Below are positions 1-40,673 of a stretch of DNA of 53,916 bases, in pieces. The number at the start of each line of letters is the position of its first letter. Positions within the stretch are counted from its first letter, which is position 1. Under the pieces are notes generated by a model that was not told the DNA's origin, did not search any database, and saw only the letters and a program-made list of their open reading frames with translations. The position numbers were made by a program, and so were the translations under genes. Source of the DNA: Candidatus Gugararchaeum adminiculabundum (GTDB lineage Archaea; Micrarchaeota; Micrarchaeia; Burarchaeales; Gugararchaeaceae); NCBI GenBank assembly GCA_902384795.1, contig CABMDC010000016.1, forward strand, positions 1-53,916. The letters run 5' to 3'.

Positions 1-314
1 CTAAGCTGCATCAGTTCAGGGTTGTCCATGGAACGGAACTGGCACCAGGCGCCCACGAGCTGGTTGTTTCCGCCGATGGGCAGGCTTGTCGCATCATAGG
101 CATCGTTAAACCCGTAATAGGAGCCGCGCGAATCAATCTTGCAGATTAGCGCGGTGCAGGTGCCGGTTATGCAGGTCATCTGGGTCCCGTTCTGGCCGGT
201 CACGCTCCCGCCCAGGTTGGTCTTGAACTGGAATCCGGAACAGCCTGCGAGCGCTATTAATATTAGGAAGAACGAGGCGTACAATGCAATTTTTTTTCCG
301 AATTGTTTTTTCAT
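1..314 (-). CDS. Partial secreted lipoprotein, 3' end beyond the window
   Basis: The gene reads from an ATG at 314 towards base 1 and leaves the window after 104 codons. The product starts with a lysine-rich n-region, a hydrophobic helix of about 15 residues and a lipobox-like LIALAGC, so Cys24 is the probable lipidated residue. The visible mature part is polar, Asn/Gly-rich and has several cysteines (CITGTC, LICK, WCQF). I do not recognise the family. It is the last visible gene of the six-paralogue array and follows it after an A/T-rich leader that carries a partial copy of the shared intercistronic element. The secretion call is well supported; the function is unknown. Confidence 0.75.
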   Translation of the reverse strand, partial: MKKQFGKKIALYASFFLILIALAGCSGFQFKTNLGGSVTGQNGTQMTCITGTCTALICKIDSRGSYYGFNDAYDATSLPIGGNNQLVGAWCQFRSMDNPELMQL

Positions 315-413: not shown

Positions 414-1499
414 TTAAACCAACTTTGAAACTCCCTGTATTAAGTACGTGCTGTCCCCGCCCAGAATCGGCGTTGCCGCGCGCACGAACATTATGGTGAT
501 TGCAAGGATTATGAAAGGCTGGATCACATATTCCATGTAGAGCATGGGAATATCAGCGCCTATGCGCGTGTACAGCGGGTTCACCGCGTTGGCCTGCTCG
601 AATCCTTTTTTCAAAAGCCTGTCGGCCCCGCCCACGTCCCCGTAGCACGCTTCGTTGGGATTGAACCCGAGCAGGGTCGAGGCCGAGCCGATTTGGGCGA
701 CGGTCGTCAGGTTGAAAGTTGAGACCATGAAAAATACCGGGTAGACGATGTAGAAGCCGATGGCGATCGCTATCAGGAGCCCTCCGATTCCGCGCGTGAG
801 CGGCAGGATTCTCAGGATTATTCCGAGCGGAAGCAGGATGTTCAGCATGGAATTCTGGACAATCTCAATGAGCGTGAGTTCCGCATCCATGACTATCTGC
901 AGCTCCGAAAGCTTCCAGTTGATGAAGTGCGCGCGCTCAACGGTCGGGTGCAGGTCCCAGCCGCAGTACATCTCGACCCCGAAGAAAATCACGCACGAAT
1001 GCTCCGCGGCCTCGATGGGCGCGTTTGCCGCGAGCACCTGCATGTATAACATTTCAATGCGTATTTTGGCCTTGTTGATTTTATCGTGGACAGGGGTGTA
1101 GGGCGAAACGCCGGATAGGGTGTTTTCACGGGTTACTGCGCCGCTGCTGCACAAATCCGGCTGGGTCAGGCAGATGGATTGGAAGACCACTGTGGAAATT
1201 ATTGCAATCAGGAAAATTACCAGGAAGCCGGACGCGACCGCCTGGAGCAGCTCCCCCTGCGCCCATCTTTTCAGGGTGTCGTTCTGGATGATGACCGAAG
1301 CCATGTAAACCAGCGAAACGAAAAAGAAGCACGCAAGGACCGCGAGCAGGGCAAAGCCCATCCAGTCATAGGTGCCCCCGATTTGCCAGGCATCGGAGAG
1401 GCTGGGCGAGGTTGAGGTAGGATTAACCTGGGATGCGGCCAAAGCTGCGAACGCTAGCAAAATGAAAAACGACAATGCAAATGTTTTTTTCAGTTCCAT
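414..1499 (-). CDS. Array membrane protein 6 (polytopic, signal peptide, LLPLG motif)
   Basis: The 361-aa product has an N-terminal signal peptide, then a TM segment followed by the family motif YMASVII...RWAQGE, a second TM, and an outside loop of about 100 residues with four cysteines (residues about 110-190). Next comes the paired helix LLPLGIILRILPLTRGIGG with IAIGFYIVYP, and a C-terminal TM ending in FVRAATPILGGD. The same blocks recur in the five genes upstream, so this is a member of a tandem paralogous family. The ATG at 1499 follows a long A/G-rich leader holding the 54-bp repeat. The function is not recognised. A VirB6/TrbL/CedA-like membrane channel component is a guess from topology alone. 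Confidence 0.85.
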   Translation of the reverse strand: MELKKTFALSFFILLAFAALAASQVNPTSTSPSLSDAWQIGGTYDWMGFALLAVLACFFFVSLVYMASVIIQNDTLKRWAQGELLQAVASGFLVIFLIAIISTVVFQSICLTQPDLCSSGAVTRENTLSGVSPYTPVHDKINKAKIRIEMLYMQVLAANAPIEAAEHSCVIFFGVEMYCGWDLHPTVERAHFINWKLSELQIVMDAELTLIEIVQNSMLNILLPLGIILRILPLTRGIGGLLIAIAIGFYIVYPVFFMVSTFNLTTVAQIGSASTLLGFNPNEACYGDVGGADRLLKKGFEQANAVNPLYTRIGADIPMLYMEYVIQPFIILAITIMFVRAATPILGGDSTYLIQGVSKLV

Positions 1500-1562
1500 T
1501 TTTTCACTTTTTCATTCATTTTTCTTTTTTCATTTTTCCGTTTCTCTTTTTTCATCTTTTCC

Positions 1563-1616
1563 GTTTTCTTTCTCTCCATTCGGGGTCTCTTTCTTTTTTA
1601 AAGAAAGAGAGGCTGA
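1563..1616 (-). repeat. 54-bp intercistronic repeat, copy A (perfect match to copy B)
   Basis: The minus-strand sequence is identical over 54 bp to the plus-strand sequence at 32891-32944. It starts directly after the TGA (1619-1617) of array gene 5 with TCAGCC. It then has a hairpin with 10-bp arms (CTCTTTCTTT and AAAGAAAGAG), then CCCCGAATGGAGAGAAAG, and runs into an A/G-rich leader ahead of the ATG at 1499. Confidence 0.95.
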
Positions 1617-2534
1617 TCACACCATTTGCGCCAATCTCGATATGTCAACTTCCTGGCCGAGCATCGCTGAAAGCTGGCGCGTGAAAATTATGATTACCAG
1701 GAAATTCAGGGCAGGGAGGAAAACATTGGCGATGAAGAAAACCGCTGCATAGGTATAGGCCGTATTGCTCGTGGATTTCAATGCCGTGTAGGACAGGCCG
1801 AAGAAATTGCCGATCATCAGCCCGTTCAGGACTATCAGGAACGGGTAGAGCAGGAACAGGCCGATTGTTATTGCGATCAATGCGCTGCCGAACCCCCGCA
1901 GGAATGGCATGGAGCGGAAGAAAGTCCCGAGCGGCAGCAGTATGAGCAGTGCCCCGATTTCCAGGTATTTGAGGACCCATAGCTGGAACAGGACAGTGAA
2001 CAGGCTTAGCTGCAAACTGCTCATTGCCATGGTGAGCGCGCCGATGCGCGAGTATAATCCGGCGCCGGGCTGGATGGAATAGCCTCCCTGGAAAATGCCG
2101 CACAGGATTATGCATTTGTACTCGGATCGGGTCGCCTGCTTTTCCTGCTCGCCCACATCCGCCCGCACCATGTCGTAAAACACATAGTTCAGGTTTCTCA
2201 TTGCCACCAGCTCTTTTGTGGCGGCATCGAAATAGGTGTCACTGGGCAGCACCTTTGCCGAGGCCGGGAACGTAAGGCCTGAGAAAGACATCATATCCCC
2301 GATGTTTGTGCTGCATGCCGCGGTTATGGACACGCTTATCAGCACTATGATCATGGCGGAGATTATCGCCTGGTAGATTTCAAGCCTGCTCCAGGCCGTG
2401 ATGTTCGGGTTGCGGAACATCTGGCCAAGCATGTAGATTGCCGAGATTGCGCAGAAGGTGATGAACATGCCCACTATGGCTAGCCCCTGCCAGTCTGTAA
2501 CGCCGGCTCCCGGAATTGGACACACACCTACCAT
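1617..2534 (-). CDS. Array membrane protein 5 (polytopic, LLPLG motif)
   Basis: About 305 aa, lacking a clear cleavable signal but starting with a TM segment. Family blocks are IYMLGQMF...AWSRLE near the N-terminus, LLPLGTFFRSMPFLRGFGS followed by ITIGLFLLYP in the middle, and FTRQLSAMLGQEVD at the C-terminus. The central loop has two cysteine pairs (CSTN, CIILC). It is the shortest paralogue. Its start overlaps the end of the upstream paralogue: a TTG at 2543 overlaps that stop as TTGA, while an ATG lies at 2534; I chose the ATG. The overlap implies translational coupling. The 54-bp repeat begins directly after its TGA. Function unknown. Confidence 0.83.
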   Translation of the reverse strand: MVGVCPIPGAGVTDWQGLAIVGMFITFCAISAIYMLGQMFRNPNITAWSRLEIYQAIISAMIIVLISVSITAACSTNIGDMMSFSGLTFPASAKVLPSDTYFDAATKELVAMRNLNYVFYDMVRADVGEQEKQATRSEYKCIILCGIFQGGYSIQPGAGLYSRIGALTMAMSSLQLSLFTVLFQLWVLKYLEIGALLILLPLGTFFRSMPFLRGFGSALIAITIGLFLLYPFLIVLNGLMIGNFFGLSYTALKSTSNTAYTYAAVFFIANVFLPALNFLVIIIFTRQLSAMLGQEVDISRLAQMV

Positions 2535-2539
2535 AGTAC

Positions 2540-3700
2540 TCAACCCATTCTAACTAGCGATGAAACATCAACGTCCGCGCCCATTATCACCGCAAACCAT
2601 CGGACGAACGTGAGAGTTATGAAAATTTTCAAAGTCGGCAAAAGCACGGTCAAAATCACTGTGCGGAATACCAGCGGCTCGGAGAAACCCGGTGAGACGA
2701 GATCCGCCACAAAGTTGTTTTCCTGCACCTCGCCCCATTTATTATAGGTGGGCATGTGCACCACGGAAATCGTTGCGCCGCTCGGGTTGTGGGCCACGTA
2801 GTCAGCGAAAATATTGTACTCGACAATCACCGCGACCGGGAAAACAATATAGAAGCCCAATGCCAGCGCAATGAGCAATCCGCCTGCCGCGCGCGTGTAG
2901 GAAAATGAGCGCAGCACTATTCCGAGCGGAAGGAGCAGGGAGAACATCGAGCCTTGGAAAATTTTCAGCAGGAAATATTGCCCTTCCATGGCGGTGAGCC
3001 CGGATGAAACGGCGCTCACCGCTCCGCCCAGCGAGCCCTGGGTGTCGGAAAGATAACGTCCCTCCATTATGGAAAAGCCGCCTGCGGACATGGCGTAGCA
3101 ATAGCCGGAAACGGTGGAAACCTTGCCCACTGTTTCGGAATAGTAAGTCATTTGATTATACTGCGCGGCTAGGTAGGTGATTTGCGATTTGGTGTAGACC
3201 TGCGCAAACTGCATTGCCGAGCCTCCGCCGCTTTCCATTTTGTTTAGCTCGACAGTGGATGTGTCCAGGTCGGCAAAGCCGAGCGAACCGCCATTGTGCT
3301 TGAATTCCTTTGCCGCATCGGCTGCGATTGTTTTGCTGAAAGTGTCCACTCCGGTGACCAGCAGGATGACGAAAACAACGGTGACTGCCACCTGGAAAAT
3401 TTCCTGCTTTGCCCAGAGTTCCAGCATGGGCATTTCAAATCCCTTGCCAATCATGTAGGCCATGGAGATTACTAGGAAGGAAACGATCAATGCCGCAAAG
3501 GCGGTGGCCTGCCAGGGGAGAAAAGCCTGCTCCGCGGTTACCGGCGTTGGCGGTGGAGCCGCGAAAAGCACGGAGGAAACTGAAAGCACCAGGATTAGCG
3601 CGATGAGCAATGGCGCGAGCAGCCGCGGGGCTGCGGCAGGGCGGATTTTCGCCATTTTATTTTTCCTATTTTTTTCGTTTTTTTCTTTTTGTTTTTCCAT
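2540..3700 (-). CDS. Array membrane protein 4 (polytopic, signal peptide, LLPLG motif)
   Basis: 386 aa if translated from the ATG at 3700. This gives a highly charged N-terminus rich in Lys/Glu/Asn; an ATG at 3655 (MAKIRPAAAP) would give a more ordinary signal peptide, so the start is uncertain. A cleavable signal (residues about 25-48) is followed by AYMIGKGF...LWAKQE, an outside loop of about 130 residues rich in Gly/Ser/Tyr/Gln, the paired helix LLPLGIVLRSFSYTRAAGG with ALGFYIVFP, and the C-terminal FVRWFAVIMGADVD. All blocks match the other array members. It overlaps the next gene and lies 15 bp from the previous one, so it belongs to one transcription unit. Function unknown. Confidence 0.85.
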   Translation of the reverse strand: MEKQKEKNEKNRKNKMAKIRPAAAPRLLAPLLIALILVLSVSSVLFAAPPPTPVTAEQAFLPWQATAFAALIVSFLVISMAYMIGKGFEMPMLELWAKQEIFQVAVTVVFVILLVTGVDTFSKTIAADAAKEFKHNGGSLGFADLDTSTVELNKMESGGGSAMQFAQVYTKSQITYLAAQYNQMTYYSETVGKVSTVSGYCYAMSAGGFSIMEGRYLSDTQGSLGGAVSAVSSGLTAMEGQYFLLKIFQGSMFSLLLPLGIVLRSFSYTRAAGGLLIALALGFYIVFPVAVIVEYNIFADYVAHNPSGATISVVHMPTYNKWGEVQENNFVADLVSPGFSEPLVFRTVILTVLLPTLKIFITLTFVRWFAVIMGADVDVSSLVRMG

Positions 3701-3715
3701 GCAACCAACTTCAGC

Positions 3716-6154
3716 TTACAATAATTTCGTGATGCCCGGCAGTTCCGCATCCCCTCCGAGCAGCGGGGAGAAAATCCTGATGAATGAAATTGTCACCAGC
3801 AGGTTGAATAATGGCGCGACCAGGGAAATCACCAGCAGCCTTCCGATCATTGCAATGTCGCTGGAGTAATCCGGAGTGATCGCAGTGCCGGTGAGGCCGA
3901 TGGATGAGGGCGCGTAGTAAACTGTGGCGCCCCCTTTGTTCAGTTCGCTGTCGCCTCCGATGCAGATTGTTTCGCAATCGGGCGAGCCTCTCTTTTTGGC
4001 GGTCCCGACCCCGGCGCAGTCCGCGTCAAATTGGTCATTGGCGCTCTTGGCCGGGTCGCTAAGGCATCGGTCCTGGCTCGGGCAGCAGCCGTCGATGTGA
4101 TTGCCATACCTGCTCGCGCCGCACAGGATGATCGGTGTGGAGTAGGGGATTTGGTTGAGGCAGGCGGCAGGGCCGTGGGAGGTGTCGTACTTGGACCCTG
4201 CTGAAGGGCAGTCCGGGTCGCTGGAAACGGCATTGTTCGGGCAGCAGCCGTCGGGAGTTAAACTGGCAGGGGTGTTCTTACTGCATTTGCTCGAGCAGTC
4301 TGAATCAAACTGTATCTGGGTCGGCGCTGTTGCTCCTGGCTTGGTGATGGATTTGCATTTGTCCTGCGGAACGCAGTAGAAATCATCGGCTGTCCCGCAG
4401 TCCGCGCTCGCAGGAACCCCCTGAATCCTGCAATCGACAACCGGGCAGTCTGGCGAGCGGTACATCTGGTTCACCCTGCAGTCCGCGGTGCATCCGGTAT
4501 GCCCGGCAGCCGGAGCAGTCACTCCGCAAAGCACATCGCAGCACGCGGAAGTATGAGCGCCATTGGTTACGTCAAATTCATGGAGCGCCTTCCCGCTGTC
4601 CTTGTCGCACTGGATATTCATGCAGGATGCGGGCTGGTTTAACGGGTCCCTGCACTCTGTTGGGCAGCCGACCATGACTTTGCCCCCGTTATTGCAGCAG
4701 GGAACTGCATTGGCCATAGAATCGTACTCGCTTCCTGAAAGCTGGGGGGCCACCGCAGGGCAGAGCGCGTTTAGCTGGGTTGCATCCGCAGTGCTGGTGT
4801 CCGCGGCTTCGCGCGAAATGCACCTTTCATCGAAGGTCCAGCTCTTACATCCCTTGCACTGCCAGTTGATTTGGTCCCCAAAGAGCTTTGCAATGTAATA
4901 ATATTGCGAAGTGGAATCCTTGCTTGCGAGGTACAGGTAATCGCATCCATATTGCTCGATGATGCAATTGATGGGATCTTTTGCGAACGGGTCGCACTTG
5001 GTGCTCGCAATGCAATTCACCTGGTTGAAATTCGCACTGTTCAAATCACAGTAATCCGCATTCGGCATGGGAGGTTTTCCTCCTGCCCCGTTTCCTGCCT
5101 GGCAGAAAAGTTTCTGGGTAGTGTCAGGGGGCTTGGCCGGATCGAACGTGAAATCGCTTGGATCAGTTCCGACCTGGGTTTCGGCATTTCCATTGCATCC
5201 GTATTTTTTCAGGTTGCAGGAATCGGTGCACGCGCTCGGGGCGACAGGGGTGAGGCTTTCGCTCACGGTGAAATTCAGGTTAAGCATTATGAACCAGAGG
5301 ACATACATGAGCGGATAGATCACGAGCAGCGCGAGGCCTGTTGCCATCATCAGCCCCCCGAGCTTGCGCGTGAAAAAGAATGTGCGCAGGAATACTCCCA
5401 GCCCGAGGAATATGGGCGCGATGCCTTCGCGGATGTAATCCAAAAACCCGATCTGCGCGTCAATCGAGCCCATTATGTTTATGAGATGCGTGAACACCAG
5501 GCGGTAGCGGTCGGTCCACATGGCTTCGCCAGCCTGGGTCATGGTGCTGAAGCCTACGAACGGAATGTCCGTGTAAACAAGCCCGTGCTTGGTGGAGGAT
5601 GAGCGCGTCTTCTCGATATTTTTGTTGAGGATTATTTCGCCCAGAAGCTTGGTTGAGTCGCTTATCCCTGTCAGGTACTGGCGCGCGATGAGCACATGGC
5701 ATCCTTCGGCATGGCAGCCGGTGGAAGTGCCGGTGATCACATCCGCGAGAATGCTTGCGAAAACCACCAGGTAGGCGATGGAGATTATGATGAGCAGGGA
5801 CATCACCACATGCGAGAATTCATTTTTTGCCCAGAGGTGGATTGCGCGGCTCTGGAAAATGGAACCTGCCATGTAGGCAAGGGATACCAAGAGGAGGGAT
5901 GCCGCGACCGCAATCACTGAAACCTGTTTCCAGGAACCGGAATCCCCGAACAGCTCAAGGAATCTTCCTTCGGTGGTGGTGCATTTATTTTGGAAGCATG
6001 TGCCCTTGCAGCAATCGGCCGCAGTGGTGCACGCGGAAGGATGGCCGGTGGCATCCAATGCCGGCTTGCACTGGACCGTGTCCGCTGCGAGCAACGGGCT
6101 TGACAGTAGGAAAATTGCAATCGCGAACAATGCCAATAGTTTAAATTTTTTCAT
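3716..6154 (-). CDS. Array membrane protein 3 with giant Cys-rich extracellular insertion
   Basis: 812 aa, more than twice the length of its paralogues. After a signal peptide comes a small six-cysteine knot-like segment (residues about 28-58), then the family block AYMAGSIF...LWAKNE, and the central pair FLGLGVFLRTFFFTRKLGG with LLVIYP. Between this pair and the last TM sits an insertion of about 450 residues (about 300-750) with around 42 cysteines, in units such as PCCNNGG, ACCDVLCG, DGCCPNN and GCCPSQDRC. The C-terminus returns to the family pattern (FIRIFSPLLGGDAE). About 50 cysteines in total imply an exported, disulfide-rich domain, possibly adhesin-like or surface-exposed; that role is inferred. 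Confidence 0.85.
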   Translation of the reverse strand: MKKFKLLALFAIAIFLLSSPLLAADTVQCKPALDATGHPSACTTAADCCKGTCFQNKCTTTEGRFLELFGDSGSWKQVSVIAVAASLLLVSLAYMAGSIFQSRAIHLWAKNEFSHVVMSLLIIISIAYLVVFASILADVITGTSTGCHAEGCHVLIARQYLTGISDSTKLLGEIILNKNIEKTRSSSTKHGLVYTDIPFVGFSTMTQAGEAMWTDRYRLVFTHLINIMGSIDAQIGFLDYIREGIAPIFLGLGVFLRTFFFTRKLGGLMMATGLALLVIYPLMYVLWFIMLNLNFTVSESLTPVAPSACTDSCNLKKYGCNGNAETQVGTDPSDFTFDPAKPPDTTQKLFCQAGNGAGGKPPMPNADYCDLNSANFNQVNCIASTKCDPFAKDPINCIIEQYGCDYLYLASKDSTSQYYYIAKLFGDQINWQCKGCKSWTFDERCISREAADTSTADATQLNALCPAVAPQLSGSEYDSMANAVPCCNNGGKVMVGCPTECRDPLNQPASCMNIQCDKDSGKALHEFDVTNGAHTSACCDVLCGVTAPAAGHTGCTADCRVNQMYRSPDCPVVDCRIQGVPASADCGTADDFYCVPQDKCKSITKPGATAPTQIQFDSDCSSKCSKNTPASLTPDGCCPNNAVSSDPDCPSAGSKYDTSHGPAACLNQIPYSTPIILCGASRYGNHIDGCCPSQDRCLSDPAKSANDQFDADCAGVGTAKKRGSPDCETICIGGDSELNKGGATVYYAPSSIGLTGTAITPDYSSDIAMIGRLLVISLVAPLFNLLVTISFIRIFSPLLGGDAELPGITKLL

Positions 6155-6171
6155 GCGTGTGCCACATTTTT

Positions 6172-7224
6172 CTATTCCATCATGCCCGCATCGAATCCAT
6201 GCGATAGCATTTTTGAAAATCCCATTATGAACGAAACCGTGAGTATGATGCTGAGGTTGGGGAAGAAAACCGCCTGGGGAATCAGCCTGCCGATTGCATT
6301 GAAGGGCAGGTACAGGTCCGGGTTCCAGTTTAGGTCGCTGACTATTTTAGCCGTCTGCGCATCCTTTGGATTGTCGATCTCATTGATTACCTGCCCGTTA
6401 ACCACGTAGGTGAGCGGGAATACGATGTAGAATCCGATGGCAACCGCGATGATGAAATCCGCAGTCCCGCGCATGTAGGGAATCAGCCTGAGCACGAAAC
6501 CCAGCGGGAGCAGGTAAACCCAGGCGAATGACTGGATCCCCTCAAGCAATATCCTCTGCACCCTCAGGCTCGCGATCATGGGGATGAGCAAATCGGTTGC
6601 CGCATCCTGCGATTCGGCATATGCCTTTTTCTCCCCGTGGCGCGCTATGCCGCTTCCTCCAAGAAGCGGGGGCGAGGAGTAGGTGAAATCAGTCGCCCAT
6701 AGCCGGTTGTCAAAGCTTCCCTGAACCAGGCTGACCACAAGGGGGACTCCTTCGCGCGAAATCAGCTTGTCCAGGTATTCCTCTGCAACGCAGATGTGCG
6801 ATTTGTCGGAATGGGCGATGGAGGAGGCCGCGGTTGCGAGCGCGACCGAACCTACAACCACTGCGAAAATCATAAGGCCTGACATGAACGTTTCGGAAAT
6901 TTCCGCCTTGACCCAGGCCTCTGCGCCATGGTTCTGGGTCAGCTGGCTGATCATGAAGGCGACTGCCAGGAAAAAGGAAACAAACACCACGGCAATCGCA
7001 AGAAGGGAGGACTGCTCTGCAAAGGAAACATAGGAGGGGATGTCGCATTCGTTCATAACCAGGGGCTTGGTGGAGGCCGCGGTTCCGTAGCCTTGCGCAG
7101 CCACGCTAGGGGCCGCAAAAATAATTGCCAGGAAAATGAACAGCACTGCTGCGAGCGCTGCGGAGTTGCGCTTCCAGGCGCCGGGTTTTTCTTTTTTATT
7201 TTTTTCCATTTTATTTTCCCGCAT
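6172..7224 (-). CDS. Array membrane protein 2 (polytopic, signal peptide, LLPLG motif)
   Basis: 350 aa. A lysine-rich start (ATG 7224; an alternative ATG at 7209) precedes a signal peptide ending near VAAQG. Then come a TM with AFMISQLT...AWVKAE, an outside loop of about 110 residues, the pair LLPLGFVLRLIPYMRGTAD with AIGFYIVFP, and a C-terminal TM with FIMGFSKMLSHGFD, the most divergent version of the terminal LGGD motif. The leader is A-rich (repeated GAAAA units), as in other array genes. It lies 17 bp upstream of the Cys-rich paralogue and 32 bp downstream of the first paralogue. It is part of the same operon by spacing. Function unknown. Confidence 0.85.
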   Translation of the reverse strand: MRENKMEKNKKEKPGAWKRNSAALAAVLFIFLAIIFAAPSVAAQGYGTAASTKPLVMNECDIPSYVSFAEQSSLLAIAVVFVSFFLAVAFMISQLTQNHGAEAWVKAEISETFMSGLMIFAVVVGSVALATAASSIAHSDKSHICVAEEYLDKLISREGVPLVVSLVQGSFDNRLWATDFTYSSPPLLGGSGIARHGEKKAYAESQDAATDLLIPMIASLRVQRILLEGIQSFAWVYLLPLGFVLRLIPYMRGTADFIIAVAIGFYIVFPLTYVVNGQVINEIDNPKDAQTAKIVSDLNWNPDLYLPFNAIGRLIPQAVFFPNLSIILTVSFIMGFSKMLSHGFDAGMME

Positions 7225-7256
7225 GTTTTCAGCTCATTTTCCGATTCCTCAAGCCA

Positions 7257-8441
7257 TCATACTATCTTGAACAAACCGATGATGTTCGTGTCCCCGCCGA
7301 TCATTTTCGAAATGTTTGTGATGCTGGTGACGGTTATGAAAATGCTGAGTATTGGGAGTATGAAAGTGATGGCCGAAATCCTTGCAACCGCCGGAAGGAC
7401 GCTGTTTGCCAAGGGCCAGTAAACCTGTGAAACGCTGATGTTGGCGTACGCTATGAGCGTTGGAACCGCGGCGATAAGGAAGCCCATGCTGAGCCAGTTG
7501 AACCAGACCATCACTCCCGCATGGCAGCCCCAGAAGCATATCCAGAAGTGCGGGCCCGCGCACTGGGGAATGCACTTGATCAGTGTCCACAGCCACTGGC
7601 CGAGCGAAATCATGAACTGCATCGTCTGGTCGCACATGTATTTCGGAGGCGGCGGAAGGTCCTTGGGAAGCGCGACTGCGCTCGGGTCGATTCTCGGGAC
7701 AGAGTAGTAGATGTTGCCTGCGAGCACGACCGTGAGCGGGAATACGATATACATGCCGATGGCAATGGCGATGATTGTGCTTCCCAGCTTTCTTGTGATG
7801 GAGAATGCGCGCATCAGGATTCCCAGCGGGAGCAGGAACCGGAACGCGTTGTACTCGAAAATTTTCAGGAACAGCTTTTCAGCGGTGTTGAATGCGACCC
7901 CGTTGGAAAGAGCGTTCACACCCTGGGAGACTCCGATGGAAACCAGGGAGATTCCGCCGCTCGGGGACATGGAAAAAATGCCTGCCACATACCAGCCCGG
8001 GGTCGCTATATTATAGCTGAAAGTGGTGTATTTGACAAGAATCTTTTCCGCCTCAAGAAGCCGGAGATACATGCGAGCCATGTAATCGCTGGACTCGTCG
8101 AGATAGGCATAGGCCATTTTGAAATAGTTTCTTACCTCGACGGTTGAACCGAACACGGTCGCGGACTGGGAAACCGGGGCGCCCATTGCCGTTGGAATCT
8201 GGGCGGCGTATTGCTCGTAGAACAGGCTCCCGAAATTGTCGGCCAGGGGCACGATTAGCGACGCAAGAAGCGAAACCAGGAGTATGCTTATCACTGCCTC
8301 GCGGAACTCGACTTTTGCAAACGCCTCCAAATGGGGGCTTTGGAATATCCTCGAAGCCATGAAGGAGATGGCGACAACTAGGATAGAAACCATTGAGCAC
8401 GCAAATGTTAATGGAAGCCATGCCGCTAGTAAATCCGCCAC
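7257..8441 (-). CDS. Array membrane protein 1 (polytopic, LLPLG motif), first gene of the array
   Basis: 394 aa from a GTG at 8441, preceded by a G-rich SD-like stretch. It lacks a separate signal peptide; the first TM carries SFMASRIF...AFAKVE, the weakest match to the WAK.E block. A loop of about 140 residues leads to the pair LLPLGILMRAFSITRKLGS with AIGMYIVFP. Then comes an extra Cys/Trp-rich loop (CDQT, CIPQC, CFWGCH; about residues 270-310) and a final TM with SITNISKMIGGDTN. As the most upstream paralogue it probably follows the operon promoter, which would lie between it and the multi-hairpin element at 8500-8603. Function unknown. Confidence 0.85.
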   Translation of the reverse strand: MADLLAAWLPLTFACSMVSILVVAISFMASRIFQSPHLEAFAKVEFREAVISILLVSLLASLIVPLADNFGSLFYEQYAAQIPTAMGAPVSQSATVFGSTVEVRNYFKMAYAYLDESSDYMARMYLRLLEAEKILVKYTTFSYNIATPGWYVAGIFSMSPSGGISLVSIGVSQGVNALSNGVAFNTAEKLFLKIFEYNAFRFLLPLGILMRAFSITRKLGSTIIAIAIGMYIVFPLTVVLAGNIYYSVPRIDPSAVALPKDLPPPPKYMCDQTMQFMISLGQWLWTLIKCIPQCAGPHFWICFWGCHAGVMVWFNWLSMGFLIAAVPTLIAYANISVSQVYWPLANSVLPAVARISAITFILPILSIFITVTSITNISKMIGGDTNIIGLFKIV

Positions 8442-10098: not shown

Positions 10099-10683
10099 TT
10101 AGCCCAGTTTGGCCAGTTTTTTTACTTTTCTTCGGGTTATTTCAGGGCAGCGCTTCAGGTATTCAAGCAATTTTTTCCTGTCCAAATTTTTCCTCAGCCC
10201 TGCGAGCGCTTCATTGCTCAAAGGCTCGTTGAAGTAGGCGAAGTCTATGAGCGTTTTTTCGTTGTCTGAAACCGGAATCCAGAAGTCCTTGTACCTCATG
10301 GTGGTGAAACCGAAAAACATTTTCCTTGCGATTCTTCTGACAACAAAATTTGAGCCTTCAAACTGCCTGACTCCACTTCTCACTTTCCTCGGGGTTAGCA
10401 CAATCGGGTTTGTTTCCTGCTCCCACAGGTTTTTGAGTGAGAGGGCTTCCTGCAACCCGTAATAAAAAGGCGTGAAGCCGAAGCCCACGGTCTCCGATTC
10501 ATCCAGGAAAGTGTAGACTCCCCGGGAAATTTTCTTGATTTCGCCGCTTTTAACCAGGTTGTGGATCAACAGGTACAGGTAATTTTTGCTGATTTTTTTT
10601 GTTCCGAGAAAAACCTGCAAGTCCGAAATGGTGAAAGCAGGAAGGCTGCCAAATTTTTCGCGCACTTCGCTTAGGTACTTCAT
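10099..10683 (-). CDS. AbiEi-like antitoxin / transcriptional regulator
   Basis: 194 aa. Residues about 1-65 form a winged-helix domain (FTISDLQVFLG, then NYLYLLIHNLVKSGEIKKISRGVYTFL). This is typical of AbiEi/COG5340 antitoxins, which autoregulate their operon. The C-terminal half (VRRIARKMFFGFTTM, VSDNEKTLIDFAYF) matches the usual AbiEi C-terminal region with the ekTliD motif. Its ATG overlaps the toxin stop by 4 bp (ATGA). The order is unusual: the nucleotidyltransferase gene comes first, whereas abiEi normally precedes abiEii. The likely operator is the inverted repeat at 11341-11372. The family call is from sequence pattern; neutralising activity is inferred. Confidence 0.82.
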   Translation of the reverse strand: MKYLSEVREKFGSLPAFTISDLQVFLGTKKISKNYLYLLIHNLVKSGEIKKISRGVYTFLDESETVGFGFTPFYYGLQEALSLKNLWEQETNPIVLTPRKVRSGVRQFEGSNFVVRRIARKMFFGFTTMRYKDFWIPVSDNEKTLIDFAYFNEPLSNEALAGLRKNLDRKKLLEYLKRCPEITRRKVKKLAKLG

Positions 10684-11327
10684 GCGAACCGCCCCTGCAA
10701 AAATTCGACCATTTGTTTAAACGAAGGGATGTTTCCGGAATAAACTATCGCCTTCAGGTTCTTCTCATCAACAGGAGGCTTGATTGATTTGAGAAGCAGC
10801 AGGACCCGCTGCTTTGCCTTAGGTTCGCCTTTGACAAAATTTGAAAGGTGGAAAATGTCGTAAATGTCGCGCACAAATAGCCTGTTGGCGTAGGCATCGC
10901 ATTTTTCCAGAATAAGGTCTTCAGGCGAAAGCGTTAGCACACTCATGAACGAGCCGTCAATTTTTTCAAACGGCTTTGCAACCGGGGGGGCAGGCTTTGA
11001 TGAAAAATTTATCTCAACGCGGACTTGCATGTCAGCGCCTGAAACCTTGCAGAAGATTAAGTTCCCGGTTTTCTTGAACTTGTCAACATTAAGCCCCCGG
11101 GCTTCAAGCCTTTCCTTCAGCCCCTCTTCAACTTTTGTTGCATCGCTGCAATAAAAATCCAGGTCTTCGGAAAACCTGTTGCCACCATAGCAGCGCCAGA
11201 CTGCAGTGCCACCGTGAAAAACCAGCCTGTTTTCCAGGGAATACAAAACTTCCGTTACCTCGTCCTGCAAGAGCCCCACGTCGATGTGTGCCCTTTTCTT
11301 CAACCTCTTCTCGAGCGGGATGTTCAT
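10680..11327 (-). CDS. AbiEii-like nucleotidyltransferase toxin
   Basis: 215 aa from the ATG at 11327; a TTG at 11342 is less likely because the TATA box would then overlap the leader. It carries the polymerase-beta-type NTase signature: HGGTAVWR at residues 38-45 and SEDLDFY at 53-59, with Asp55 and Asp57 as metal ligands. Downstream come the family's ...SPEDLILEKCDAY..R...RDIYDIFHL block (about residues 135-165). AbiEii toxins transfer nucleotides to tRNA or other targets in type IV toxin-antitoxin systems. Translation is coupled to the AbiEi gene through ATGA. Flanking direct repeats suggest the pair arrived as a unit. Confidence 0.85.
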   Translation of the reverse strand: MNIPLEKRLKKRAHIDVGLLQDEVTEVLYSLENRLVFHGGTAVWRCYGGNRFSEDLDFYCSDATKVEEGLKERLEARGLNVDKFKKTGNLIFCKVSGADMQVRVEINFSSKPAPPVAKPFEKIDGSFMSVLTLSPEDLILEKCDAYANRLFVRDIYDIFHLSNFVKGEPKAKQRVLLLLKSIKPPVDEKNLKAIVYSGNIPSFKQMVEFLQGRFA

Positions 11328-11340
11328 GCATATATTAAGC

Positions 11341-11372
11341 AACCAAACATATAAAAAACTATAAGTTTGGTT
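11341..11372 (-). promoter_or_regulatory. AbiE promoter with inverted-repeat operator
   Basis: A perfect 8-bp inverted repeat, AACCAAAC at 11341-11348 and GTTTGGTT at 11365-11372, brackets an A/T-rich core holding a minus-strand TATA-like sequence (TTTTTTATAT). The core lies about 25 nt upstream of the toxin ATG (11327). AbiEi antitoxins are known to bind inverted repeats in their own promoter, so this is a strong operator candidate. Confidence 0.7.
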
Positions 11373-16449: not shown

Positions 16450-18318
16450 TTAAATATTTGCCGGAACTCTGCCGTTGACTTTCCCTTTCCCATTGGTTCC
16501 GTCCTTTTTCTGGAAAGCGGCTATGGCTGAAACAGGGATTTTTCTATCATCCCCGTTTTTTCCATTGCCATTGGGGCCGGCCATATTCATGAATAATTGG
16601 TTGAAGTCTTTTTCTGAAAGCGGCTTGTTATCTCCAAAGCGATCTGAAACCTGAGGGTCTGGTCTTTTTTCGAATGGCGTGGGCCCGAGGCTGGACAGGC
16701 TCGGGTACATTGCGCACAATACTTGGAGCGCCTGGGTCAATCGGGCGTTGGTGGTGGGGGCATCGTTTGGAAACTTGGCATTCATCTCCCTGATCAGCTC
16801 GTCCCTGGTCGAACCTGGCTTGGTTTGCTTCAGCTCCTTGAGAAACTCCAGTTTTCCGGTCCAGTCATAATGTTCCTGTATTTTGGCCTGGAATGTAAGG
16901 CCTTTCAGCTCGGGATATTTTTGGTACAGCTTTGAGATTCCTTCTGCCATTTTGGAAGTGTTTGCGCGGGCGCCATCCGGAAATTTGCGGTTCAGCTCAT
17001 CGGCAATCTCATGCCTTTCCAGGCCGGGCTTGGTTTGTTTTAGCTCTTTGAGAAATTCCAGGTGCGCGTCGTCCCATCGATATAGCTGGCCCGGCTTATG
17101 GCGGGTCTTTTCCTTTTCATCAGGATAAAGGGAACCCAGCTTATTTAGGATAATTTGGTAGGTTGCCTGAACCCCTTTGGGATAGCGCTGGTTCATCTCC
17201 TTGGCAAGCCGCTTGGAAACCCAGTCACTGTGGCGGGTGTGCAGTTTTTTCAGGCAAAGCTCTTTTTCGGTTGTCCATTTGTAGCGCACCTGGGGGCACT
17301 TTTTGAGATCAGGAGCGGTTTGGTACAGTGTGCGCAGCTTGTCCCTTACGGTTCTCTCGGTTGCGAGAACGTCTTCCTTGTATTTTTCATTTAATTTTTC
17401 CGCAATCTGCGCCCGGGTCATGGCGCGGTCGGCTTGCCTCAAATCCTTGATGAATTGCTCCTTTTCAGCGGTCCAGTTGTAGGGTTCGCTTGGCTTGGGG
17501 TATTTTCTCAAACCCGCGTTGGGCTGCTTTTTGCAGAGCTCCATAAACTTGCTTTCCACTGCCCCGGCATCTGCGCGCGGGCCTTCCTTGAATTGCCCGT
17601 TCAGGCGCTCGGCAAGCTGGGAGTAGGTAAGTTTTTTGTCGGCTTTCCTTAGCCGGATGAGGAAGTTTGTTTTTTCGGTCGTCCATTTGTAGGGCTCGGG
17701 CTTCTTTGGCTTCAGTTTCCGCAGGCGCGGGTTCTGCTTGTAAATCGAACGAAGCCCTGATGCAACAACGTGCCTGCGCGCCCTGATTCCTTTGGGGAAT
17801 TCCTTGTTTAATGCCGCTGCCATCTGATCCAAGGTCATGGCGCGGTGATTCCTTTTCAGCCCCCTTAGGAATTTCCTTTTTGCGTCGGTCCATTCATAGG
17901 GGGAGCTGTTTCTCTTTAGCCAGGGCCTTCTTTTTTCAAGCTTGATGAGCTTGTTCCCAACCCCGGTTTTGTCCACTCTTTCCCCTTTTGGGAAATAGGC
18001 ATTAAGCGAGTCGGCGATTTGCTGTTCGTTGTATTTGGGATGGAAAACCTTGCAGGCGACCAGGAATTTCGTTTTCGCCCGGTTCCACTTGTAGGCCGGC
18101 TTGCGGTCGAATGATTTGAGCTCGGGGTGCGCTGGGTAGAGGTCCCGCAGCGCGTATTCGACTGTTCTGCAGTCCACTTGGTGGGATTTTGGAAAACGTT
18201 GGTTTATGCGCGCTGCCAGCTGCTTGTAGGTAAGCCTGCGATTGGCCTTCCGTTCCCTAATCAGAAAATTTTCCTGTTTTTTATTCAGCTCGTATCTTTG
18301 CTTTCTCAAACCTCGCAC
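16450..18318 (-). CDS. Protein of eight tandem HTH-like (Myb/SANT-like) repeats
   Basis: 622 aa, mostly eight repeats of 65-71 residues starting near residues 9, 76, 141, 210, 280, 346, 413 and 484. Each repeat has Y.WT.EK..FL..L+, then a linker, then a helix like MT..QIAE.LN, then F..G..A...TV...L..LY..P.LK. The pattern is that of a three-helix DNA-binding unit, and the protein is very basic. The C-terminal 70 residues are Gly/Asn/Lys-rich and look disordered. The GTG start at 18318 is supported by a TATA box about 26 nt upstream, giving a leaderless mRNA. DNA or chromatin binding is inferred; I know of no archaeal family with this exact layout. Confidence 0.85.
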   Translation of the reverse strand: MRGLRKQRYELNKKQENFLIRERKANRRLTYKQLAARINQRFPKSHQVDCRTVEYALRDLYPAHPELKSFDRKPAYKWNRAKTKFLVACKVFHPKYNEQQIADSLNAYFPKGERVDKTGVGNKLIKLEKRRPWLKRNSSPYEWTDAKRKFLRGLKRNHRAMTLDQMAAALNKEFPKGIRARRHVVASGLRSIYKQNPRLRKLKPKKPEPYKWTTEKTNFLIRLRKADKKLTYSQLAERLNGQFKEGPRADAGAVESKFMELCKKQPNAGLRKYPKPSEPYNWTAEKEQFIKDLRQADRAMTRAQIAEKLNEKYKEDVLATERTVRDKLRTLYQTAPDLKKCPQVRYKWTTEKELCLKKLHTRHSDWVSKRLAKEMNQRYPKGVQATYQIILNKLGSLYPDEKEKTRHKPGQLYRWDDAHLEFLKELKQTKPGLERHEIADELNRKFPDGARANTSKMAEGISKLYQKYPELKGLTFQAKIQEHYDWTGKLEFLKELKQTKPGSTRDELIREMNAKFPNDAPTTNARLTQALQVLCAMYPSLSSLGPTPFEKRPDPQVSDRFGDNKPLSEKDFNQLFMNMAGPNGNGKNGDDRKIPVSAIAAFQKKDGTNGKGKVNGRVPANI

Positions 18319-32944: not shown

Positions 32945-32974
32945 TAAAAAATGTATCCATATATTGGTGCAAAA

Positions 32975-34366
32975 ATGGGGATGAAAAACGGTCAGGCGTC
33001 AGTCGAATTGGTCGTGCTTCTTGCCGTAGCGCTGTTCATACTCGGCGCGGTCGTGATTGTTGCCAATAATGAGATACGGGCGTACAATGCGCTCCAGGAA
33101 AAAAACAAGGCCGAGCTGGCGGTGAAGCAGATTGTCACCGCCGCGGACCAGGTCTATTTGCAGGGGAGCGGGGCGAAAAAGAAAATCTGGGTCGAGCTCC
33201 CGGGAGGGATAAGCTCGGCGAACGTGAGCGGCCATTATGTTTCCCTGCGCGTAAGGGGCTCTGATACTTCCCCCTATTCATCAAAAGGCGAGCTCTATGG
33301 AACTGTGCCGCCGGAAGAGGGGGGGCACTGGCTCTGGGTTGTTTCATCGGGGAACAAGGTAAGGATCGGGTCCGTGGATTTGGACATAGACCCCACCCTG
33401 CTGGTGGTCTATACGTTCACCTCGAATTTCGACCAGTATTACCAGAAGAGCTTCAAGGTTTCCAATGTGGGCGTTTACAATGAAACCGTTGATGTGCTGA
33501 TTGTCTGGGATGAGGCGAATGTGACGGTCAGGATAAACAACACGGCAAACCGCTTCACCCTTGCGCCCGGCGCCAGCAGGACCATACTGGTCGACTTTTA
33601 CACGACCGCGAGTTCCATCGGGTCTTTCAACGGGTACATAAGAATGAACTCCAGCAAGGGGGACGAGGCGCGGGTCGACCTGGCGGTCAACCTGGTGAAC
33701 CAGGAATGCGTGCGATGCAGCGAGCTTGTGGCCGGATGCGTGCCGGCGTATTATGAGATCAAGACTTTTGCCAATTCGGATTACTCGGTGGAAAAAACAG
33801 CGTTTGACCCGGGGGAAAATGTCTATTACTCGGTGAGGAATTACAAGGAGAACGGGGTGCTTTCAAACACCCCTCTCCGTGTGAAAATATCCGACCCGGT
33901 GGGCAACCTGACCCAGGAAATGGACGTCTCGACCTGGAACGCGACAGGGACCTACCTGAACTTTTTCCAGGTGCCGGACGTGCCGCTCACTGGGGCGTGG
34001 AACATCACGGTTTCGCACTGCACGGTGGGAACGGGAAAATTCTACGTGGGCACGGGCACCCATGAGCTTAACAGGATTGAAATCAGCGAGCCTGAAAGGA
34101 AGAGCTATGCTTTTGGAGAACTGGTCGGAGTGCGGTTCAGGATTGAGAACCTGCAGGGCGTGGGAGTGGCGGGCCTGAATAGCGAGGAAAGGATGATGCT
34201 CGATGTGGGGGACGGGAACAACTATGTCACGGATGTCATTGATTTGGGAGGAGGTACCTACAACTTCTCCTATGTGCCCGTCAATGCGGGAGTGAACAAG
34301 ATCAGCGTCACTGCGAACAACACGCGGGTGAATGTCACTGCTGAAAAAACAATTTATGTTTCATGA
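32975..34366 (+). CDS. Large class III pilin-like protein
   Basis: 463 aa from the ATG at 32975, five bases after a GGTG SD; the ATG at 32951 is possible. MGMKNGQASVELVVLLAV is a clear class III prepilin signal with the Q.S.E motif, so EppA-type cleavage before Gln is expected. The long helix continues (LQEKNKAELAVKQIVTAADQVYLQG) and then beta-sandwich modules follow (about 70-460), including a Pro/Gly-rich segment with four cysteines (ECVRCSELVAGC). It overlaps the next gene by 4 bp (ATGA). A tip or adhesive pilin is a reasonable but unproven reading. Confidence 0.85.
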   Translation: MGMKNGQASVELVVLLAVALFILGAVVIVANNEIRAYNALQEKNKAELAVKQIVTAADQVYLQGSGAKKKIWVELPGGISSANVSGHYVSLRVRGSDTSPYSSKGELYGTVPPEEGGHWLWVVSSGNKVRIGSVDLDIDPTLLVVYTFTSNFDQYYQKSFKVSNVGVYNETVDVLIVWDEANVTVRINNTANRFTLAPGASRTILVDFYTTASSIGSFNGYIRMNSSKGDEARVDLAVNLVNQECVRCSELVAGCVPAYYEIKTFANSDYSVEKTAFDPGENVYYSVRNYKENGVLSNTPLRVKISDPVGNLTQEMDVSTWNATGTYLNFFQVPDVPLTGAWNITVSHCTVGTGKFYVGTGTHELNRIEISEPERKSYAFGELVGVRFRIENLQGVGVAGLNSEERMMLDVGDGNNYVTDVIDLGGGTYNFSYVPVNAGVNKISVTANNTRVNVTAEKTIYVS

Positions 34367-34806
34367 TTGATGATGCGGGAAAAATGAAAGCGAAAAGCAA
34401 ACCTGTGGGAAAGATGCAAATGAAAAAATACAAAGGCCAAGTGACAGCCGAGTTCCTTATCATACTGATCGCCCTGCTCGGAGTGCTTCTTTTCGCCTAC
34501 GGGGCCTCGTACAATTTCAAAAAGGCGGAGCTGTCTTTTGAGAACATGCTGCAAGGGAAGAGCATCGCCTACCGGGTTGCGCGCACGGTGAACGAGGTCT
34601 ATTTCGCAGGGGACGGGACCGAAGCGAAAGTTTTCATAGACAGCGGCTATACGCTGGAAGCGACGCCGAATATCCTGGTCGTGGAAAAGGAGAAGAGGAT
34701 AATCGGGGATTTCCCGTTGGCCACCATGAACGTGACCGTTATGACGACTTCTTTTGGAAAATACGCGAGCGTGAGGAACATTGATGGAGTGGTGTATATC
34801 TCATGA
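34363..34806 (+). CDS. Class III pilin-like protein
   Basis: 147 aa if started at the ATG overlapping the previous stop (ATGA); ATGs at 34384, 34414 and 34420 would give shorter, more typical leaders. The signal KYKGQVTAEFLIILIALLG has the class III G|Q..(A)E pattern. The long N-terminal helix (SYNFKKAELSFENMLQGKSIAYRVARTVNEVYF) parallels that of the previous gene, including the NEVYFAGDG/DQVYLQGSG turn, so the two are related. A small beta tail completes it. Probable minor pilin of the operon. Confidence 0.85.
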   Translation: MIDDAGKMKAKSKPVGKMQMKKYKGQVTAEFLIILIALLGVLLFAYGASYNFKKAELSFENMLQGKSIAYRVARTVNEVYFAGDGTEAKVFIDSGYTLEATPNILVVEKEKRIIGDFPLATMNVTVMTTSFGKYASVRNIDGVVYIS

Positions 34807-35339
34807 AAAGGAAACGCGGAGCGCAGGGAACTGAAAATAAATCCCGCAAAGGCCAGTTCTTTTCGCTGGATGTGCTTTTCGGAGCCACCATTTTCCTAGT
34901 GGTGCTGCTCACTGCGCTCACGACCTGGAACAGCGCGTTCCAGAAAACGGCAAAGCTTGAGGAGCAGAGGGAAACAAATGAGATCGCCTGGGTGGCCGCG
35001 CAGCAGCTGGTCCAGGGGCCCGGGATTCCCGCGCTTTGGGAAAATGAGACAGACCTGGAACGGATTGGCAAGATCGGGCTGGCTACGACCTACGGCGAGT
35101 TTGACGAGGGAAAAATATTGAGGCTTGAGGAGCTGAACGCCAGCCATGAGGATTATGATGAGGCGAAGCAGAAACTGGGCGCGGGGAAGTTTGAGCTGTA
35201 TGTTTCGTTTGAAAGCAATCTCACGAGGATACACGAGTTCGGGGCGCCGCCCCCGGAGACAAGCCCGTCCATAGTTGTCACAAGAATGGGAAGCCTGAAC
35301 GGGGAGCCGGTGAAAATGCACGTGGTGGTCTGGAAGTAA
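34803..35339 (+). CDS. Pilin-like protein
   Basis: 178 aa. ATG overlaps the upstream TGA by 4 bp. The n-region is long and basic (MKRKRGAQGTENKSRKGQ). It is followed by FFSLDVLFGATIFLVVLL, so the motif is KGQFFSLD, with Asp at the place of the usual Glu. A helix follows (AFQKTAKLEEQRETNEIAWVAAQQLVQG). The C-terminal part is mixed and has no cysteines. Its stop is followed by the shortened intercistronic element at 35342. Confidence 0.8.
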   Translation: MKRKRGAQGTENKSRKGQFFSLDVLFGATIFLVVLLTALTTWNSAFQKTAKLEEQRETNEIAWVAAQQLVQGPGIPALWENETDLERIGKIGLATTYGEFDEGKILRLEELNASHEDYDEAKQKLGAGKFELYVSFESNLTRIHEFGAPPPETSPSIVVTRMGSLNGEPVKMHVVVWK

Positions 35340-35341
35340 AA

Positions 35342-35366
35342 TCAGCCCCGAATGGAGAAAGAAGAA
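35342..35366 (+). repeat. Shortened copy (D) of the intercistronic element
   Basis: TCAGCCCCGAATGGAGA at 35342-35358 follows the TAA (35337-35339) after two bases. It equals the 54-bp repeat with the hairpin segment removed. An A/G-rich leader of about 70 nt then leads to the next gene. Confidence 0.85.
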
Positions 35367-35437
35367 ATGGATGAAGGGAAAAATGAGGAAAAAAGAAAAA
35401 TGGAGAATAGATGAAGAGAAGGAAAGGAGAAATGAAA

Positions 35438-35923
35438 ATGAAGAAAGAAAAAAACGAAAAAAAGAAATTGAGGAAAAAAATGGAAAACAAAAAAGAAAAA
35501 CGAAAAAACAGAACGAAAAAAGGGCTGGTAATTTCCTTTGATTCGATCATAGCCCTTTCGGTAATGTTCATGATGGTCATCGGAGTGAACGCGATGCTGG
35601 GAAAGACGAACAGCCAGACATTTGAGGAGCTGAACTCCATAAAAATGACCAACGACATCCTTGCGGCGATGGAAAAAACGGGCGCGATTGAGCGCGCGGT
35701 GATGAAAGACGACCCGGCATCGCTTGAGAAATTCCTCAAGGAAACGCGCCAGAACGACTGCTACATGATGAGGGTCTATGACAATGAGAACAAAACCGAG
35801 GTAGCGATGGTGAAGCAGGGATGCAGCGCGCACGGGGAGGACGTGAGCGTGAATTCGCGCACGATTATTTTTGGCAACAGGGAGCATTTGGCTGTGCTAA
35901 GCAGTTGGAGCAGGGGTTCGTGA
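35438..35923 (+). CDS. Pilin-like protein with Lys/Glu-rich leader
   Basis: 161 aa from the ATG at 35438, seven bases after GGAGA; starts at 35411, 35432 or 35480 are possible. Before the hydrophobic helix is a run of about 30 Lys/Glu/Asn/Arg residues, encoded by an A/G-rich tract. The signal region KKGLVISFDSIIALSVMFMM keeps the G....SFD pattern of the operon's pilins. The mature helix (NSQTFEELNSIKMTNDILAAMEKTGAIE) and a small domain with two cysteines (DCYMM, GCSAH) follow. The unusual leader makes the true N-terminus uncertain. Confidence 0.78.
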   Translation: MKKEKNEKKKLRKKMENKKEKRKNRTKKGLVISFDSIIALSVMFMMVIGVNAMLGKTNSQTFEELNSIKMTNDILAAMEKTGAIERAVMKDDPASLEKFLKETRQNDCYMMRVYDNENKTEVAMVKQGCSAHGEDVSVNSRTIIFGNREHLAVLSSWSRGS

Positions 35924-35925
35924 TT

Positions 35926-36810
35926 ATGCATTTTGGCTTTGCATCGATTAAGAAAGGATTCGTGTTCACCATCGCCACTCTGCTAATTTTCTCCATGCTC
36001 ATCTATTTTGCCCAGTTTTATTTGCTGCTCTCGTCCCAGTACCAGGAGGATGCGGTCGGGGCCGAGTATATCGCAAGGGCGGGGTATATTGCGGATGACA
36101 TCGGCTGGGACCTCACCAAGCTCATGGGAGTGGACGTGAATTTTGAAAGGAATGAGACAGCGCTGAGCCTGCGCTTCAGGACGGAGATCGCACCTGCGAA
36201 CATGAGCGATGTTTTGGACGGGTACAAGGATTTTATCGAGAACACCTATGCCAAGGCGCAGAATGTGAACATCAGCCTGGGCCTGGACGAAACAGGCCGC
36301 ATCGAGTTCAGCAATGGAATCGTATACGAGTATAATTACTCGCTGGAGAACACGAGCATCATAACTATTTACAATTCGAACGGCGGGACGGGATTCACGG
36401 ATTTGTCCATCAACATTTCAAGCGAAGAGAGCGGGAGGAACGGGACGCAGGAGTTTGCCTTCAACCCCGACGGGGACATGGGCGTGAACGTCAGGTACGC
36501 GGATGGCGAGGGGTATTTCCCCATGAATGGCATAATGAGTTCGACCGGGCTCGAGCGGTTCACCATGGAATACGGGGAAGAGCCGCGCAGGACGCTGGAG
36601 ATACGGATTGGCGACCTGGGCGGAGTCAGGACAGGGGCGATAATGATAATTGCAGCCAACGGGTACACCGCCTCGGAAGTGAATATCACCGCAAGCATGG
36701 CGCCGATGGCCGTTGAGCAGGATTTGTCCTACCAGGTGCCGGTGCATCTGACAATTGAAAATGAGGGAGTGAAAAAAATAACGGACGCGGTTGTTTTGCG
36801 CAGAGGGTAA
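35926..36810 (+). CDS. Pilin-like protein with beta-rich outer domain
   Basis: 294 aa from the ATG at 35926; a GTG at 35920 overlaps the previous stop. The n-region MHFGFASIKKG is followed by FVFTIATLLIFSMLIYFAQFY and a helix (SQYQEDAVGAEYIARAGYIADDIG). The motif lacks Gln but keeps KKG before the hydrophobic stretch, as in the previous gene. The outer domain (about 60-290) has alternating strands and no cysteines. It is last of five pilin-like genes before the motor ATPase. It is probably a structural or capping minor pilin. Confidence 0.78.
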   Translation: MHFGFASIKKGFVFTIATLLIFSMLIYFAQFYLLLSSQYQEDAVGAEYIARAGYIADDIGWDLTKLMGVDVNFERNETALSLRFRTEIAPANMSDVLDGYKDFIENTYAKAQNVNISLGLDETGRIEFSNGIVYEYNYSLENTSIITIYNSNGGTGFTDLSINISSEESGRNGTQEFAFNPDGDMGVNVRYADGEGYFPMNGIMSSTGLERFTMEYGEEPRRTLEIRIGDLGGVRTGAIMIIAANGYTASEVNITASMAPMAVEQDLSYQVPVHLTIENEGVKKITDAVVLRRG

Positions 36811-36859
36811 ACATGGTTGCAAAACTTAATAAACGGGGATAAATAAAGGTGAGAACGCT

Positions 36860-38605: not shown

Positions 38606-38631
38606 ACTGTTTTAGTTTTTGGGTGGAATGA

Positions 38632-39519: not shown

Positions 39520-39551
39520 GTGAATGAAATGCGTAGGGCAGAGTGACAATT

Positions 39552-40595: not shown

Positions 40596-40673
40596 GCAGA
40601 ATTTGCTTTGCCTAAGCGAAAGATTAAAATAAGGCGGGAACAAACAAAAAAGAGTTAAACAGAAGGTGATGGT

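Follow-up and report, generated by a model that had tools for sequence, protein, structure and literature searches.

Six different VirB6/CedA-like membrane proteins in a fixed order, putative subunits of a Ced/Ted-like type IV secretion machine in Micrarchaeota

VirB6 remains one of the most poorly understood components of type IV secretion systems, and the way in which cargo gets past it is a matter of debate. In the solved systems VirB6 is homopentameric and lies between the base of the VirB2 pilus and the VirB4 hexamer below (PMC12624023). In the Thermoproteota, the Ced and Ted systems join an archaeal VirB6-like polytopic protein (CedA/CedE and TedA, respectively) to a VirB2-like pilin and a VirB4/HerA-like ATPase, and have no relaxase (PMC11868833, PMC9905601). 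CedE has five transmembrane (TM) helices (PMC11868833, PMC9905601), and Saccharolobus carries two CedA-type paralogues (PMC11868833). Here we analyse an array of six consecutive genes at positions 414-8441 (minus strand) of a 53,916-nucleotide contig of Candidatus Gugararchaeum adminiculabundum (CABMDC010000016.1), a Micrarchaeon of the DPANN archaea. This whole contig is our window; it is the entire contig C16 of a 1.47 Mb draft genome, and the array sits at its left edge. The six genes very probably encode VirB6/CedA-like subunits that differ from one another, are obligately inherited together, and belong to a Ced/Ted-like type IV secretion machine that has no relaxase and occurs across the Micrarchaeota. 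Sequence comparisons show the ancient six-fold set, its fixed order, and its link to and co-occurrence with a VirB2-like pilin and a VirB4/HerA-class ATPase, and homology together with modelling suggests the VirB6 identity.

In reading order, the open reading frames (ORFs) were 7257-8441 (position 1; 394 amino acids (aa) from a predicted GTG start), 6172-7224 (position 2; 350 aa), 3716-6154 (position 3; 812 aa), 2540-3700 (position 4; 386 aa), 1617-2543 (position 5; 308 aa, with a predicted TTG start that overlaps the preceding gene), and 414-1499 (position 6; 361 aa); they lie exactly in the stretch given by the first-pass annotation of this DNA. All-against-all BLASTP recovered every pair (best E ~1e-5 to 1e-24), and three blocks aligned across the six with MAFFT. 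The invariant columns include M66, E83, L223, G226, R230, R236, P254, and P328 (numbering of the 414-1499 protein). That these are six minus-strand tandem paralogues with three shared blocks, as first annotated, was thus confirmed by ORF positions, BLASTP, and alignment. Each gene was labelled a VirB6/CedA-like paralogue from this paralogy and from its clade in the trees described below (for position 4, its position group). The label drew further, for position 3, on CPxxC motifs that its orthologues conserve and on the length and Cys count of the loop, on an AlphaFold model for position 4, and on a CedE model match (4e-5) and an AlphaFold model with VirB6 matches for position 6.

Hydropathy and charge over 92 family members indicated five TM helices after an N-terminal signal or anchor, the latter seen in most members and not in every annotated start. 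A strong positive charge (net +2.3) places the LR..TR turn in the cytoplasm, whereas the two long loops, which are acidic, contain Cys, and show little conservation, are placed outside. The layout predicted from the sequences has the N terminus outside, the C terminus inside, and about five TM helices; the cytoplasmic turns (WAK.E and LR..TR..GG) are conserved, and the outer loops vary. It agrees with VirB6 of A. tumefaciens, which has an outside N terminus, an inside C terminus, five TM helices, and a large outer loop (PMC6120205). Mean pairwise identity among the six was 0.11-0.14 in the two long loops versus 0.39 in the LR..TR turn and TM4, so the divergence lies mostly in the outside loops, as had been proposed. 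The largest outer loop is the Cys-rich one of position 3, placed ahead of the last TM helix (median 415 aa and ~36 Cys).

Tandem paralogy and variable outer loops would also fit a recent lineage-specific tandem duplication with diversifying loops, yielding phase- or antigen-variable exported-loop proteins. The family profile matched 258 of 295 genomes of the phylum. Arrays were read from a sample of genomes; only those uncut by a contig or stretch end were counted as complete, each once, and L115 and G028:C5, whose contigs are equally long, were treated as one array. All 35 distinct complete arrays, from many families, held exactly six members in one order, and 12 of them were genome-collection loci not used in building the position profiles. 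The order was also consistent in six more arrays that are cut. In the most divergent families (f7 and f8) the position profiles scored closely, and some best matches went to a neighbouring position. In one genome (G054) position 3 was missed by the ORF rule, yet family and CedE matches were found at its place. Several genomes have two arrays; that of the window carries its second at C1:116,000-124,000.

In a tree of 94 members, each position formed one clade or nearly so, and members grouped by position, not by genome. The position labels changed 7 times for 7 groups, where the minimum possible is 6 and shuffled labels gave 63. Since members cluster by position across families, the six-fold set is older than the sampled families. 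On this phylogenetic evidence the six are ancient orthologous subfamilies kept in fixed order, with no recent local expansion. Recent tandem duplication was accordingly rejected on the position clades; no complete array with another member number was seen, and we regard the probability of such an origin as negligible. The suggestion that the genes are a set of variable exported-loop proteins found no support either, as the members make up no diversifying pool. A scan of all genomes returned 23 related loci, 21 labelled Candidatus Micrarchaeota and two labelled only 'archaeon', with a position-6 motif that is too specific to settle the distribution beyond the Micrarchaeota.

The gene company of the arrays points to a type IV secretion machine. 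In seven genomes a single cluster contained one or more VirB2-like pilins, the six-gene array, two 2-TM proteins, and an ATPase of ~505 aa. Between the pilin(s) and the six genes there was often a protein of 5-12 TM helices, and the ATPase was often followed by a short protein, a CxxC 2-TM protein, a PCI-like protein, and a large membrane protein with immunoglobulin (Ig)-like matches; in G054 the last two fall on the next stretch (L060). An eighth genome (G020) had the same cluster, array and ATPase adjacent, without a recognised pilin. The pilin that heads the cluster is a small protein with a signal and two TM helices. T4SS-pilin Pfam families (T4SS_pilin, TrbC) were matched by 11 of 17 pilins, and the one convincing PDB match of the pilin profile was TrwL/VirB2 of R388 (9e-4). 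The nearest models of the ATPase were CedD (9e-22), CedB (2e-20), and VirB4-like conjugal ATPases. A VirB4/CedB-type ATPase and a VirB2/CedA1-type pilin, the partners expected in a Ced/Ted-like machinery, were thus both found.

Five genomes contained a minimal locus (L085-L089) made up of a pilin, one family member, a 2-TM protein, and an ATPase (in four of these loci the 2-TM protein was identified by similarity); the solo members form a separate clade in the 94-member tree. For the two 2-TM proteins downstream of the arrays (~271-277 aa), Pfam and PDB searches gave coiled-coil noise only. We had suspected that they correspond to VirB3 and the N-terminal domain of VirB4; these searches gave no support, and the proteins are left unnamed. 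In genomes of type A, including that of the window, the ATPase cluster is present but separate from the array, and the VirB2-like pilin that goes with the family is encoded elsewhere in the window's genome. On contig C19 of this genome, a PAP2-superfamily phosphatase gene (L054:11559-12536, minus strand; 6e-29) lies between a VirB2-like pilin and a 2-TM protein, the place that the array takes in relatives.

Two further loci with pilin genes were noted in this genome. An operon resembling those for archaeal type IV pili occupies 32951-41147 (plus strand) of the window; as judged from ORF translations alone, it comprises pilin-like proteins, a secretion ATPase (36860-38605), two membrane proteins, and a small pilin-like protein. 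The link between the array and these genes (~33-41 kb) that the first-pass annotation had envisaged did not hold: no array read had such neighbours, and the associated pilin is VirB2-like. A second, separate conjugation-like cluster (G000:C7, L053:5720-12047) adjoins DNA methylase-like ORFs and encodes two VirB2-like pilins, a 527-aa surface protein, a 347-aa 8-TM protein, and a 798-aa VirB4 close to the CD1110 family (3.5e-81); it is probably a mobile element. When its 347-aa membrane protein was compared with the family, the right block aligned, without significance.

Co-occurrence was scored in 96 genomes that were at least 90% complete and at most 5% contaminated. Family and ATPase were both present in 88 and both absent from seven, and one genome had the ATPase only (Fisher p = 7e-10, which is too optimistic since the genomes are related). 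The seven with neither are spread over five families, and a single family (f21) included four genomes with both and four with neither. The relaxase PF03432, the only relaxase family searched, gave no match above cut-off in 14 genomes. The VirD4 family PF02534 was absent from 10 of the 14; the other four had weak short matches, two barely above cut-off inside giant ORFs. A relaxase and a VirD4-type coupling protein mark a relaxase-driven conjugative element; the lack of matches to this one relaxase family and the few, weak VirD4-like matches are what a Ced/Ted-like machine would lead one to expect (PMC9905601, PMC11868833), rather than such an element. Short T4SS-DNA_transf (VirD4) matches at G044:C15:89226-89360 and G003:C6:8809-8955 lie in open frames of 4596 and 3271 aa, which recall the giant 'SPEARE' proteins of nanohaloarchaea, reported to have a VirB4/TraG-like ATPase domain (PMC10266531).

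A VirB6/TrbL/CedA-like channel had been guessed earlier from topology only. CedA was compared through NCBIfam models only: the CedA and CedE models (NF041796 and NF053657) were run in six frames over 20 whole genomes. In family genes fell 13 of the 14 CedA matches and all 19 CedE matches; three CedE places outside the stretches first read were checked, and all were in further arrays. The matches are all on the middle block and so show a local relation only.

AlphaFold2 models of positions 6 and 4 (pLDDT 78 each) were compared with the PDB by Foldseek and VIA-align. For position 6, R388 VirB6 was at Foldseek rank 2 (probability 0.72, E 0.22) and shared the highest VIA score (Z 7.4, rmsd 6.6, 236 of 260 residues). 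For position 4, VIA ranks 1-3 were all R388 VirB6 (Z 8.8, 8.7, and 7.8, followed by 7.3 and then 6.4; rmsd ~6.9 over 223-236 residues), with a Foldseek rank of only 4. For helical proteins such scores are not decisive by themselves; read together with topology and gene company, we find them persuasive for a probable VirB6 identity.

Several observations weigh against a VirB6-like identity or against its place in such a machine. No Pfam match was found for the family, and no VirB6/TrbL model matched at E 0.1 or better (54 members). Pfam and PHROGs searches with single members and with the 54 gave nothing useful, and searching PDB sequences with the family profile was no more productive. The best CedA/CedE scores were ~27 bits against curated cut-offs of 330/400 bits, and confined to the middle block. 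The fold scores lie within the range where helical proteins may match by chance, the array and the ATPase cluster of the window's genome are on separate contigs (the latter on C19, L054), and most genes were read from metagenome-assembled genomes. With no Pfam family and with sequence and fold scores each weak, the proteins might belong to some other polytopic family that is partnered with a VirB4/HerA-like ATPase of archaea, for instance to export surface proteins or glycans. We consider this improbable, given that, of all the membrane proteins in 20 genomes, it is mainly these that the CedA/CedE models match, that a VirB2-like pilin is adjacent even in the four-gene minimal loci, that the family is lost together with the ATPase, and that R388 VirB6 comes first or nearly first in the fold comparisons of two paralogues modelled separately. 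Gene neighbourhood, co-occurrence, CedA/CedE matches, and fold comparison point to VirB6/CedA, and the early guess was right in kind. We do not class the members as CedA/CedE equivalogs or place them in the VirB6/TrbL Pfam family; the likeness is one of topology, fold, and gene company.

As a VirB6/CedA-like set, the six subunits would form a joint assembly beneath a VirB2-like pilus and be powered by the VirB4-like ATPase; the fixed six-fold set speaks indirectly for such an assembly. The role of VirB6, normally homo-oligomeric, would be split among six obligate different subunits, and the solo locus, with one pilin, one subunit, and one ATPase, would represent the homo-oligomeric form. A partner cell would be faced by the lipoproteins encoded downstream and by subunit 3 with its Cys-rich outer loop. 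By analogy with Ced and Ted, the cargo may be DNA. A more specific and rather doubtful picture is that the six products form one hetero-hexameric VirB6 ring, with one copy of each in a fixed cyclic order, matched to the VirB4 hexamer. If true, such a machine would not have the five-to-six symmetry mismatch seen in solved type IV secretion systems, and its channel would lack symmetry, subunit 3 serving as a specialised contact arm. Five subunits plus one accessory, or several rings, would be possible as well.

The proteins could also be VirB6-like and share no single mixed ring, each paralogue forming its own homo-oligomer, or some of them, such as the Cys-rich position 3, acting as surface adhesins or tip proteins. 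Outer loop size differs strongly between positions, the minimal loci work with one member, and in Anaplasma two VirB6 paralogues (VirB6-3 and VirB6-4) are surface-exposed and suspected of such roles (PMC7648143). The six are nevertheless kept together and in fixed order in every complete array read, and all of them conserve the TM core and the cytoplasmic turns, so we hold separate assemblies to be a possible, less favoured arrangement.

Directly after the array, an open-ended ORF (3-314, minus strand) with the lipobox LAGC is cut by the contig end. Giant Cys-rich lipoprotein ORFs occupy the same place in five relatives with the same array type, and the ORF is probably the start of such a gene. 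On the other side, just past a lipoprotein gene upstream of the array, we noted an AbiEi/AbiEii-like type IV toxin-antitoxin pair (10099-11342, minus strand; AbiEii 4e-22, AbiEi_4 6e-5 and slightly under cut-off). A repeated-HTH protein of 622 aa with about seven homeodomain-like (HTH_32) units is encoded at 16450-18318 (minus strand).

Our searches of the literature, which covered few subscription journals and preprints, found no earlier description of such a set in DPANN archaea. Six different VirB6-like subunits, long kept, would amount to a natural labelling of the ring, so that the subunit facing pilin, ATPase, or partner could be read from co-variation. A Ced/Ted-like machine is also suggested for most Micrarchaeota, a point of relevance to DNA uptake by these DPANN archaea or to dealings with their hosts.

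The Ced and Ted systems share the pilin and the ATPase with the Micrarchaeota loci and have a polytopic protein to which the six are probably related. In contrast to the six members found here, they have one or two such proteins per system and belong to another phylum, and the scores lie far below their family cut-offs. TrwI/VirB6 of plasmid R388 (PDB 7O3V, 8RT9, and 8RTD) is among the best solved folds for two paralogues, with nearly the whole VirB6 chain aligned, but it is a homopentamer of one protein (PMC12624023) with ~10% identity to the paralogues. A phylum-wide, reduced type IV secretion system with VirB2-, VirB4-, and VirB6-like proteins is described for the ultrasmall, host-dependent cells of Patescibacteria; these are bacterial, and the passages of that report that were consulted mention no six-fold VirB6 set (PMC12102498). 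The closest precedent is the type IV secretion system of the Rickettsiales, also host-dependent cells, in which tandem VirB6 paralogues, some with very large outer domains, share one operon with VirB3 and VirB4 (PMC7648143). These are bacterial proteins recognised by the TrbL/VirB6 model, four in Anaplasmataceae and five in Rickettsiaceae (PMC7648143). Tandem VirB6 paralogues in the Rickettsiales and two CedA-type paralogues in Saccharolobus were already known, and the fixed six-member set in Micrarchaeota is new as far as our literature searches reached. VirB6 was probably multiplied independently in the Rickettsiales and the Micrarchaeota, and the similarity hints at a recurrent solution.

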